NCBI GenBank assembly: GCA_945883495.1
Contig: CAMCXS010000049.1
Location: 1-43,698 of the forward strand
Origin: Akkermansia muciniphila
GTDB taxonomy: Bacteria; Verrucomicrobiota; Verrucomicrobiia; Verrucomicrobiales; DEV007
Direction of reading: 5' to 3'
Length of the DNA: 43,698 nt
Shown: positions 20,113-22,964 of the stretch, piece by piece
Layout of the letters: every line of letters starts with the position of its first letter
Numbering within the stretch: the first letter of the stretch is position 1
Program-made: the position numbers and the translations under genes
Notes under the pieces: generated by a model
The model's database searches: none
Seen by the model: the letters and a program-made list of their open reading frames with translations, nothing else
What the model was told of the DNA's origin: nothing

Positions 20113-20679
20113 TTAGGCAACGTTCACGTCCGTCCCCTTGTGCCCCAACTGACGAACCGTCCGATTCAACTGATCGAATTCGATCGGCTTTTTGATCACC
20201 GTCACCGGCCCACTGGACAAGATTTTCGTCAAGATCTCACTATCGGGATATCCGGTAATAATGACAATTGGCAGATCTGGATGAGACTCCTTGAGCTTGA
20301 GGTAGAGCTCATCTCCCGGAATATCAGGCAACTTGAGATCCAGAAAGACGAGATCAAAATCCTGCTTTTCAGCATAGGCCAGTGCCTCTGCGCCAGTCCC
20401 CACCACGATCCGGCCGAAACCAGCCTTCTTCAGGAACTGCTTAAACAAGGTTTGCAAGGCTGGATCATCATCAACAACGAGCACAGTCGGCTGCCCGGCC
20501 TCATCCTTGCGGAGAATATCCCGATCCAGAAGACTGCGCTTGATCCGCCACCGACCACCAATCTGAATAGCAGGCAACTGCCCCCTTTGCACCAGGTAAT
20601 AGACTGTTGGCAGAGGAATGCGGAGATACTCTGCGGTCTCTTTGACCGTCATGAGTTCGGGTGGATCATCAGGCATCAT
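20113..20679 (-). CDS. regulator with N-terminal excisionase-type HTH and C-terminal receiver domain
   Basis: 188 residues from the ATG at 20679; a TTG at 20763 would add 28 unlikely residues. Residues 8-57 form a MerR/excisionase-type winged HTH (LMTVKETAEYLRIPLPTVYY ... GGRWRIKRSLLD). Residues 65-185 are a CheY-like receiver with the acidic pocket VVDDD at 69-72, phospho-acceptor D114 in VFLDLKLPD, T142 and the conserved lysine near 163-164 in VIKKP. All phosphorylation residues are present. The order DNA-binding domain then receiver is the reverse of most response regulators. No histidine kinase is in the window. It is upstream of and co-transcribed with a GT2 gene, so it may control glycan synthesis. 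Confidence 0.8.
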   Translation of the reverse strand: MMPDDPPELMTVKETAEYLRIPLPTVYYLVQRGQLPAIQIGGRWRIKRSLLDRDILRKDEAGQPTVLVVDDDPALQTLFKQFLKKAGFGRIVVGTGAEALAYAEKQDFDLVFLDLKLPDIPGDELYLKLKESHPDLPIVIITGYPDSEILTKILSSGPVTVIKKPIEFDQLNRTVRQLGHKGTDVNVA

Positions 20680-21009
20680 GGTGCGTGTGGGTTCGAAATA
20701 CGGCGGAACAGATGGCGCCCTCCTGGAGAAAGCCCTCCAAAAGCCCAGCTGCGAGCTGTTCAATAATTTCTATAGGCAACTTCAAAATTCAGATTTTGCA
20801 ACCTCGTTCTTCTCGAATTTTGGAAGCTTCACAAATCTGAATCTCACAGACGAGACCGAACCGCAAAGATTTCACCCCGCGATTGCAGTCAGTTAATAGC
20901 CGAAGAAAGCACTAGAACAGCCTCTCCTATCTATCAACTACACGAAACTTCCAACAGCTTCAAGAGCAAAGCAAGACTTTTGGAGATTTTGTTAGAAGGA
21001 GCCTGTTGG
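20680..21009. other. 330-bp AT-rich intergenic region between divergent genes
   Basis: This stretch separates the HTH-receiver gene (minus) from the small ORF at 21010 (plus) and must hold promoters for both. It is clearly more AT-rich than its surroundings, especially 20760-20870. I see no convincing pair of -35/-10 hexamers and no gene. Confidence 0.5.
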
Positions 21010-21126
21010 ATGCCAAATTTCAGAGCCTCTGGAATCGTAATCTTGCCCTTTTCACGCCAGCTTTTTGCTTCTCGCTCGCCCTTCCCTCTTGCTTTCTCCC
21101 CCGTTCACTGGTGTAATGGCAACTGA
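21010..21126 (+). CDS. 38-codon ORF with strong ribosome binding site; possible leader peptide
   Basis: The ATG at 21010 is preceded by AGAAGGAG at 20994-21001, eight bases upstream, one of the best Shine-Dalgarno sequences in the window. The 38-residue product is rich in Phe, Pro and Ser, has no membrane helix or recognisable domain, and ends at TGA 21124-21126. Eight bases later an intrinsic terminator begins, and the M23 peptidase ATG follows directly after its T-run. This layout fits either an independent micropeptide gene with its own terminator or a leader peptide controlling read-through. There is no run of one codon that would name an amino-acid signal. Confidence 0.45.
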   Translation: MPNFRASGIVILPFSRQLFASRSPFPLAFSPVHWCNGN

Positions 21127-21134
21127 AGCTAGGA

Positions 21135-21168
21135 GGGGGAGTCGATACTCGATCCCCCGTTTTTTTTT
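21135..21168 (+). terminator. intrinsic terminator ending three bases before the M23 start codon
   Basis: GGGGGA at 21135-21140 pairs with TCCCCC at 21153-21158. With G21141 bulged, TCGA at 21142-21145 pairs with TCGA at 21149-21152 around a three-base loop. A G and then nine Ts (21160-21168) follow. This is a textbook Rho-independent terminator on the plus strand. The ATG of the M23 gene is at 21172. AGGAGG at 21131-21136 overlaps the base of the left arm. Confidence 0.8.
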
Positions 21169-21171
21169 GCA

Positions 21172-22068
21172 ATGCGCCACCTCGTCTCAAGGCACCTGCT
21201 GCTTGCCGCAATCCTCGTGACCGCAACGACCTCCCGGCTCCTTGGGGTCGCTGAAGGCGTGATTCCCACCACCGAGATCCGGCTGGCGGACGGCTTTGAC
21301 TTCCCCGTAGGAAAGCCAGACGGCGCGAATTACTACCGTTTCCGCGGCTTCATCCGTGGCGACCATATGGGCGAGGATTGGAACGGAATCGCGGGGGGAA
21401 ACAACGACCTGGGCAAACCGGTTTACGCGATCGCTCATGGCGTTGTCGTCTACTCCAAGGATTACCGCTCGAATTGGGGGAACGTCATCATCGTCCGCCA
21501 CGCCTATCGAGAAAAGGGCACGATTCGCTACATCGATTCCCTCTACGGACACCTCAACGAGCGCATCGTGACTACGGGCACCCAAGTCTCCCGCGGCCAG
21601 AAAATCGGCACGATTGGCACGAACCACGGCATGTACGTGGCCCACCTCCACTTTGAAATCCGCAAGAACATCAACATCGCGCTCAAGCATCGCGATTACG
21701 CGATGGACTTCTCCAACTACCACCGTCCCGCCCAGTTCATTTCTGAGCGGAGAGTCCTCATGCCGGAGCATCCCCGCCAACCAGTGCCCATCGATTGCTT
21801 CGGGATGGGAGTGAAGAACCTGTATGAGGGCACCCGGCTCCCCGCTCTGCCCCAACTTCCTTTCGACCAGCCGCTCCCCCGGCCCGCCATGAACCCGGTC
21901 CTCCGGGACATTCTCGTCCGGAACGGAATCTATGAGCGGACAGCTCCCTCCCAAATCGAGAAGGAGCAAGCCGAAGAACGAAACAAGATCCTTAATCAAT
22001 GGCGCACCTGGCGCCGCCAACAGATGGATAAGGAAGTGAACAACGATCCAGTGGAGCCGAAACAGTGA
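21172..22068 (+). CDS. M23-family peptidoglycan endopeptidase 1
   Basis: A 298-residue exported protein with a signal-type N-terminus (RHLLLAAILVTATTSRLLG). The LytM/M23 domain lies at about 40-200. Expected zinc ligands are H65 and D69 (HMGED) and H160; catalytic histidines are H127 (YGHL) and H158 of HLHFE. It should cleave peptide cross-links of peptidoglycan. The C-terminal 100 residues are charged and helical. No Shine-Dalgarno sits between the terminator T-run and the ATG, so translation may need a leaderless or refolded mRNA. A close paralogue follows after 80 bp. Both share the segment DGFDFPVGKPDG/DGFDYPVGKPDG and the GGN-D-LG loop. Confidence 0.9.
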   Translation: MRHLVSRHLLLAAILVTATTSRLLGVAEGVIPTTEIRLADGFDFPVGKPDGANYYRFRGFIRGDHMGEDWNGIAGGNNDLGKPVYAIAHGVVVYSKDYRSNWGNVIIVRHAYREKGTIRYIDSLYGHLNERIVTTGTQVSRGQKIGTIGTNHGMYVAHLHFEIRKNINIALKHRDYAMDFSNYHRPAQFISERRVLMPEHPRQPVPIDCFGMGVKNLYEGTRLPALPQLPFDQPLPRPAMNPVLRDILVRNGIYERTAPSQIEKEQAEERNKILNQWRTWRRQQMDKEVNNDPVEPKQ

Positions 22069-22111
22069 GCGTCGAAAAACTCATTGCGCTCCCAGATTGA
22101 TTTGATATCTT

Positions 22112-22135
22112 GATTGTTAAGGTCTGTTAACAATC
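22112..22135. promoter_or_regulatory. 24-bp perfect dyad upstream of the second M23 gene
   Basis: GATTGTTAA at 22112-22120 and TTAACAATC at 22127-22135 are perfect inverted 9-bp half-sites separated by six bases. The dyad ends 13 bases before the ATG at 22149. A weak promoter TTGATA (22102-22107), 17 bases, TGTTAA (22125-22130) would overlap it, so it looks like an operator for a dimeric repressor. No T-run follows, so a terminator is unlikely. Confidence 0.55.
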
Positions 22136-22148
22136 GGCCCGATTGCTC

Positions 22149-22964
22149 ATGAAGATCCTCTGCCTCTCTTGCTTCGCTGCCCTTTTGGTTTTCCCCCAGA
22201 TGGCGTCGGCTCAGTCGTCGGTGGCCCTCACCCTCCCAGCGGATGGCTTCGACTACCCCGTCGGCAAACCCGACGGCCAAGGCTATTATCTGGCTCGCGG
22301 ATTCCGATCCAATGGCCACCTCGGTGAAGACTGGAACGGACGAGGAGGCGGAAACACCGATCTCGGTGATCCGGTCTACGCCTCCGCGCACGGCGTGGTC
22401 GTTTTCTCCAAGGACCAGCGTGAAGGGTGGGGCAACGTCATCATCATCCGCCACGCCTACCGCGAATCGAACGGACGCATTGAATACGTCGATTCCCTCT
22501 ACGGCCACCTCAACGAACGTCACGTTTCCCTAAACGAGACTGTGCAGAGAGGCCAGCAGATCGGGACGATCGGCACCAATCGAGGCATGTATTGGGCGCA
22601 CCTCCACTTTGAGATGCGCAAGAATTTGCAGATCGGGATGAATCGCTCCGAGTTCGCCCGCAATAGCTCGAATTACTACGACCCATCCGGATTTGTCGCC
22701 AGCCACCGTCAACTCCAACCAGAAATGCGCAGTGTCCGCGTTCCGGTCGACACCTTCAATGACCCCACGGCCGACCAGTTCGCCGATTTCATGGCCCGGA
22801 TGAGCACCACCGCGCCCCCGCCGAGCCCAGCCGCAAAGCCGGAACCCCGCCAAGCCCAGACTGAGACGGAGGCACAGGAGAGTCAGGGCGAGCGGGACAA
22901 GATCCGTTCGTTTTGGGGCAAGATCCGCTCTGGCAGCGTCACCCCGGGCATTGATCCCGCCTAA
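22149..22964 (+). CDS. M23-family peptidoglycan endopeptidase 2
   Basis: 271 residues from ATG 22149; a TTG two codons upstream is less likely. A signal peptide runs to about residue 21 (FPQMASA). The M23 domain covers about 30-190: metal site HLGEDWNG with H57 and D61, YGHLNERH, and HLHFEMRKN. All catalytic residues are present. It is a tandem paralogue of the previous gene, with most differences in the C-terminal tail, which here is Pro/Ala/Gln-rich and then charged. Its own dyad-containing leader suggests separate regulation. It ends 7 bp from the convergent cimA stop. Confidence 0.9.
   Translation: MKILCLSCFAALLVFPQMASAQSSVALTLPADGFDYPVGKPDGQGYYLARGFRSNGHLGEDWNGRGGGNTDLGDPVYASAHGVVVFSKDQREGWGNVIIIRHAYRESNGRIEYVDSLYGHLNERHVSLNETVQRGQQIGTIGTNRGMYWAHLHFEMRKNLQIGMNRSEFARNSSNYYDPSGFVASHRQLQPEMRSVRVPVDTFNDPTADQFADFMARMSTTAPPPSPAAKPEPRQAQTETEAQESQGERDKIRSFWGKIRSGSVTPGIDPA

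Follow-up and report, generated by a model that had tools for sequence, protein, structure and literature searches.

Intrinsic terminators in 5' untranslated regions (5'-UTRs), and the premature termination of transcription that goes with them, are known from the mapping of RNA 3' ends in Escherichia coli (PMC7815308). A termination signal located between a promoter and a start codon can limit the amount of downstream mRNA, and the candidate terminator described here, which lies in front of an M23 peptidase gene, would be comparable in this respect; it differs from the E. coli examples, for which 3' ends were mapped, in that its hairpin is not conserved, is predicted from sequence and has no known regulator. 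The mdtU-mdtJI region of E. coli likewise has a small ORF (34 codons in mdtU, 38 at the present locus) in front of a gene whose leader includes a terminator region. However, mdtU is conserved in at least 17 genera and is translated, and its termination is Rho-dependent (PMC7815308), whereas the ORF described here lacks conservation and appears to be non-coding. For nlpC of Corynebacterium glutamicum, which encodes a cell-wall peptidase, control through the leader RNA by a ydaO/kimA c-di-AMP riboswitch has been described (PMC9960051). Unlike in that system, the predicted M23 transcript has no aptamer-sized structured leader, and no family reached its gathering score when the whole window was searched against Rfam. 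Elements of this kind are already known, and the location of the present one in front of an M23 gene is unusual. A literature search naming the phylum found no study of 5'-UTR termination.

Organization of the M23 locus

The window, i.e. the whole stretch of 43,698 nucleotides that was analysed, is one entire contig of a 6.46-Mb draft genome. The locus consists, in this order, of a divergently transcribed gene encoding a protein with HTH_17 and response-regulator domains, an intergenic region, the M23 peptidase gene and a second M23 gene (Table 1). The start of the divergent gene was set at the conserved residues MMPDD, and the ATG of the M23 gene is aligned in both same-genus relatives, hereafter G001 and G002. 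The two M23 genes, located in tandem at 21172–22964, are paralogues with ~56% identity over the aligned core, and the pair is kept in both of these relatives.

Table 1. Features of the M23 locus and the region upstream of it (positions are those of the window)
Feature	Position	Strand	Evidence or remark
Divergent gene, HTH_17 and response-regulator receiver protein	20113–20679	−	Pfam PF12728 (5e-15), PF00072 (5.7e-24)
Conserved block	20945–21036	+	82% and 79% identity to the two same-genus relatives
38-codon ORF, judged a chance reading frame	21010–21126	+	Shuffles, codon score, ATG not conserved, indels
Dyad ATTTCAGAG-N-CTCTGGAAT	21017–21035		Within the block 20945–21036
Promoter-like element TTGCTT-N17-TGTAAT (TCTAAT in both relatives)	21089–21117	+	Three-genome alignment; inside the ORF; predicted start ~21124
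CTCCCCC, possible antiterminator arm, complementary to 21135–21141	21096–21102	+	Chance level
Putative terminator hairpin GGGGGA(g)TCGA-TAC-TCGATCCCCC	21135–21158	+	−14.2 kcal/mol; shuffles; 3'-end class of the genome
T9 tract, likely termination zone	21160–21168	+	Sequence; 1 of the 62 T8+ tracts examined
M23 peptidase, N-terminal signal-like segment	21172–22068	+	Pfam PF01551 (3.5e-19)

Hairpin and T-tract in front of the M23 gene

The stem of the hairpin contains 10 pairs and one 1-nt bulge. The hairpin is followed by G21159, the T9 tract, the trinucleotide GCA and the ATG of the M23 gene, and the arrangement of an intrinsic terminator, i.e. a G+C-rich hairpin directly before a U-run, is therefore present, with one intervening base. 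Chance expectations were obtained by dinucleotide-preserving shuffling of the 470-base stretch that precedes the M23 ATG (20702–21171). Because a hairpin of −12 kcal/mol or lower followed by at least six Ts appeared in only 8 of 1,000 shuffles, the combination of hairpin and T-run is not due to chance. The hairpin was missed by a simple terminator scan, presumably because of the bulge, and the form GGGG...CCCC-T7 is present at no other place in the genome.

A preliminary description of this DNA had reported an ORF ending eight bases before a perfect intrinsic terminator, the T-run of which ends three bases before the M23 start codon. Both distances were confirmed (stop codon at 21124–21126, hairpin from 21135, last T at 21168), and the hairpin and T9 are present, but 'perfect' is too strong a term for a stem with a bulge. 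The further statement that there is no ribosome-binding site between the ORF and the M23 gene needs to be qualified: a Shine-Dalgarno (SD)-like TAGGAGG is present at 21130–21136, but it is 35 nt away from the ATG and lies partly inside the stem.

In total, 62 distinct tracts of at least eight Ts were examined in the genome, and clean strong hairpins were picked by eye from the list. Such a hairpin directly precedes 10 of the tracts, including that of the M23 site. At eight of the nine other sites, a same-strand ORF ends 39–78 nt upstream; for the ninth, the list contains no upstream ORF end. Of the 52 tracts that lack a clean hairpin, 9 have a same-strand ORF end 30–80 nt upstream, this range having been picked after the tract list was seen and the ORFs being mechanical predictions of at least 90 codons. 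The difference (8/9 vs. 9/52) indicates that a hairpin followed by T8 or T9 is an ordinary gene-end terminator in this genome. The copy in front of the M23 gene is an orphan in this class: the closest ORF to end on the same strand (20618–20896) does so at a distance of 264 nt and overlaps the divergent gene in antisense. Since the gene on that side is divergent, there is no upstream gene on the plus strand for the terminator to serve.

Conservation in related genomes

When 38 related genomes were searched with the intergenic DNA, convincing homologues were identified only in G001 and G002, the two other members of the genus, and the remaining rows were short, chance-level pieces. A family search with the M23 protein gave matches at E 1e-40 or better in 63 of 74 genomes, and a retrieval of genome contigs gave 80 loci, two of which are, judging by length, the same contigs as G001 and G002 and add no new close relative. 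Conservation was thus judged on the two close relatives found in the collections searched. The gene order is kept in both. Synteny of the response-regulator and M23 genes is also kept in other genera, where the intergenic DNA looked too different to align (18 regions were inspected, some in part, 3 of them from genus members), and a family-wide motif comparison, which covered the upstream DNA of 98 of 108 loci, showed no single shared promoter motif.

In the alignment of the three genus genomes, invariant columns account for 72% of 20945–21009, 85% of 21010–21036, 9% of 21037–21080 and 11% of 21118–21171. The hairpin region shares only 21 and 33% identity with G002 and G001, respectively, and the hairpin with its T-run is absent in both. 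The interval between the promoter-like site and the ATG contains a strong hairpin without a T-run in G001 (−29.0 kcal/mol) and next to no structure in G002 (−2.5 kcal/mol). As judged from this alignment, the putative terminator before the M23 gene is present in this strain but in neither of the other two genomes, and its presumed function is without support from conservation or covariation. The ORF, the hairpin and the antiterminator pairing, for which a comparison with relatives had been proposed in the preliminary description, are conserved in neither G001 nor G002. The outcome considered there, in which the ORF frame is lost and the terminator is kept, was not the one observed: both are lost in both relatives, while the promoter-like element inside the ORF is kept.

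The 38-codon ORF

The ORF extends from the ATG at 21010 to a TGA stop codon, reads as the peptide MPNFRASGIVILPFSRQLFASRSPFPLAFSPVHWCNGN and is preceded by an SD-like sequence, AGAAGGAG (20994–21001), 8 nt upstream of its ATG. Its length is unremarkable, because closed ATG ORFs of at least 38 codons appeared in 857 of 2,000 shuffles; ORFs of this length with an SD-like motif appeared in 49 of 2,000. The ORF has a codon score of −0.19 per codon, as compared with means of 0.20–0.39 for eight genes of the window; negative 114-base segments were found in only one of these genes (minimum −0.023). An SD motif was found at the first start of 2 of the 24 predicted genes in the window (chance expectation, about 7%), and AGAAGGAG is therefore weak evidence for a ribosome-binding site. 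Some Verrucomicrobia are among the SD-scarce organisms in a published survey (PMC10783764).

The start codon of the ORF is replaced by TCG in G002 and by CCG in G001, although in the latter the preceding codon is an in-frame GTG. The stretch from GGAATC to CCTTCCC measures 43 nt in the window, 17 nt in G002 and 29 nt in G001, so that the reading frame of the window is not kept. Inspection of the peptide sequence revealed no run of one amino acid or of control codons. It follows from the column invariance that conservation within the ORF concerns the dyad and the promoter-like element, not the peptide. We conclude that the ORF is probably a chance frame that overlaps the promoter-like element, and that there is probably no leader peptide. 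The ORF 'with an excellent ribosome binding site' of the preliminary description is thus real as regards its 38 codons and the upstream motif, but the motif carries little meaning in a genome of this kind and the ORF is non-coding-like. The proposal of a separate micropeptide gene followed by an M23 mRNA that starts after the terminator finds little support: the ORF is neither coding-like nor conserved, and the interval 21160–21172 offers neither the space nor a plausible promoter for such a start. These results also call for caution, as promoter regions in intergenic DNA that is SD-poor and rich in pyrimidines can, as a by-product, give rise to a 'leader ORF with a good ribosome-binding site'.

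Promoter-like element and conserved block

Across the three genus genomes, 6 of 6 columns are invariant in the −35 hexamer of the promoter-like element and 5 of 6 in the −10 hexamer, and the distances from the −10 hexamer to the ATG are similar (54, 43 and 44 nt). The pattern TTG-N20-T[CG]TAAT, which was chosen after the alignment had been seen, occurs 14 times in the 6.46-Mb genome vs. 10 times in the reversed control, and TTG-N20-TATAAT is hardly enriched (6 vs. 4 sites). Sigma-70 promoters nearly always have an A at position 2 of the −10 hexamer, and neither TGTAAT nor TCTAAT contains it; a promoter scan that requires this A did not list the element.

The dyad is located ~50 bases upstream of the promoter-like element and is kept in all three genus genomes, with one arm position differing in G001. 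The exact sequence of its core is found nowhere else in the genome. The conserved block, which precedes the presumed M23 promoter, is probably regulatory DNA. The block was also considered as a gene and rejected by eye, because the frame in the three genomes has no shared start and the changes are mostly non-synonymous.

Possible roles of the hairpin

Our preferred reading, held tentatively and with a probability of roughly 0.45, is that a lineage-specific intrinsic terminator in the 5'-UTR of the M23 mRNA damps transcription of the M23 gene, with no leader peptide involved. RNA polymerase would start at ~21124, i.e. at the ORF's own stop codon, from a presumed, genus-shared promoter at 21089–21117, which would place the hairpin at about +12 to +35, the T-tract at about +37 to +45 and the AUG at +49. 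The hairpin would form from the first ~35 nt of the RNA, and some of the polymerases would be released at the U9 tract, immediately ahead of the start codon, resulting in less M23 mRNA. Read-through transcripts would be translated without an SD sequence, as is usual in this organism, and the 38-codon ORF would play no part. The M23 start site, the efficiency of termination and any regulation are all deduced here from the DNA sequence. This reading is favoured by the rarity of the hairpin with its T-run in shuffles, the use of such structures at gene ends in this genome, the divergent orientation of the upstream gene, and the retention of the promoter-like element in relatives that have lost the ORF. 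Points against it are the −10 hexamer without an A at position 2, the slight enrichment of the promoter pattern and its choice after the alignment, and the absence of the hairpin in both relatives; moreover, termination so early in the gene's own transcript (about +12 to +45) would carry a high cost in the absence of regulation. If the hairpin does terminate transcription, a single lineage has gained a transcription brake on a peptidoglycan hydrolase.

It is unlikely that the terminator instead ends a separate short RNA (about 150–200 nt) that starts within the conserved block, with the M23 gene expressed by read-through or from a proximal promoter. Conservation of the block in both relatives and the location of the genome's other clean hairpins with T8 or T9, which end transcripts behind genes, are in line with such an RNA, but neither relative has a hairpin with a T-run after the block, the window contains no Rfam match at the cut-off, the long transcript does not exceed shuffled sequences in predicted stability (z = 0.49), and no convincing promoter was seen by eye in the block.

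The hairpin could also be non-terminating and serve as a 5'-UTR structure for mRNA stability or translation initiation, e.g. by bringing TAGGAGG, which sits at the 5' base of the stem, closer to the ATG and leaving the U-tract single-stranded for the ribosome. Although G001 also carries a strong hairpin before the ATG, in its case without a T-run, G002 has none, structures of the same class sit at gene ends in this genome, and SD sequences are hardly used there (2/24 genes); we consider this role rather improbable.

Attenuation without a leader peptide appears more doubtful still. In transcripts from an upstream promoter, CTCCCCC could pair with GGGGGAG (21135–21141) and prevent formation of the terminator under the control of a ligand or protein, and the minimum-energy fold of 20985–21180 does use this pairing. 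However, a 7-nt complement of the terminator's 5' arm appeared in 558 of 3,000 shuffles, neither pairing arm is conserved, and no riboswitch family matches; in 20700–21300, the sole Rfam match up to E 5 is a ylbH leader on the minus strand, with 12.5 bits vs. a cut-off of 50. Moreover, a transcript from the promoter at 21089, should this promoter exist, does not include the upstream arm. The attenuator suggested in the preliminary description survives in so far as the terminator lies between any plausible promoter and the M23 gene and transcripts must pass it, but a leader peptide is unlikely and the antiterminator pairing is at chance level; an attenuator of a type other than leader-peptide is possible but unsupported. 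It is very improbable that the strain acquired the M23 5'-UTR terminator in a form in which the alternative fold is open only to upstream-promoter transcripts, the choice between the distal and proximal promoters deciding M23 expression. If true, this would be a two-promoter attenuator without a leader peptide in a verrucomicrobial, SD-poor genome.

Leader-peptide attenuation, in which formation of the terminator would depend on translation of the 38-codon ORF, is unlikely: although AGAAGGAG is well spaced (49/2,000 shuffles) and a ribosome at the stop codon would, by its geometry, cover the 5' arm of the hairpin, the start codon and frame are broken in the relatives, the terminator is absent there, the codon score is non-coding, control codons are lacking, SD sequences are hardly used in the genome, and the alternative pairing is at chance level, not conserved and upstream of the predicted start, with no fit in Rfam.

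Observations on other loci

The HTH_17/response-regulator protein shares ~88–90% identity with its counterparts in nine loci from other genera, in which the gene is also located near an M23 gene. Upstream of the HTH_17/response-regulator gene, these loci contain a conserved block in which CCACAAT/ATTGTGG-like words are repeated and which is possibly an autoregulatory operator. In three further loci, labelled as Prosthecobacter or Verrucomicrobiaceae, a terminator-like hairpin ending in GCGCCGTTTTTC was seen by eye before the M23 start, but in these loci it follows what appears to be the end of an upstream gene.
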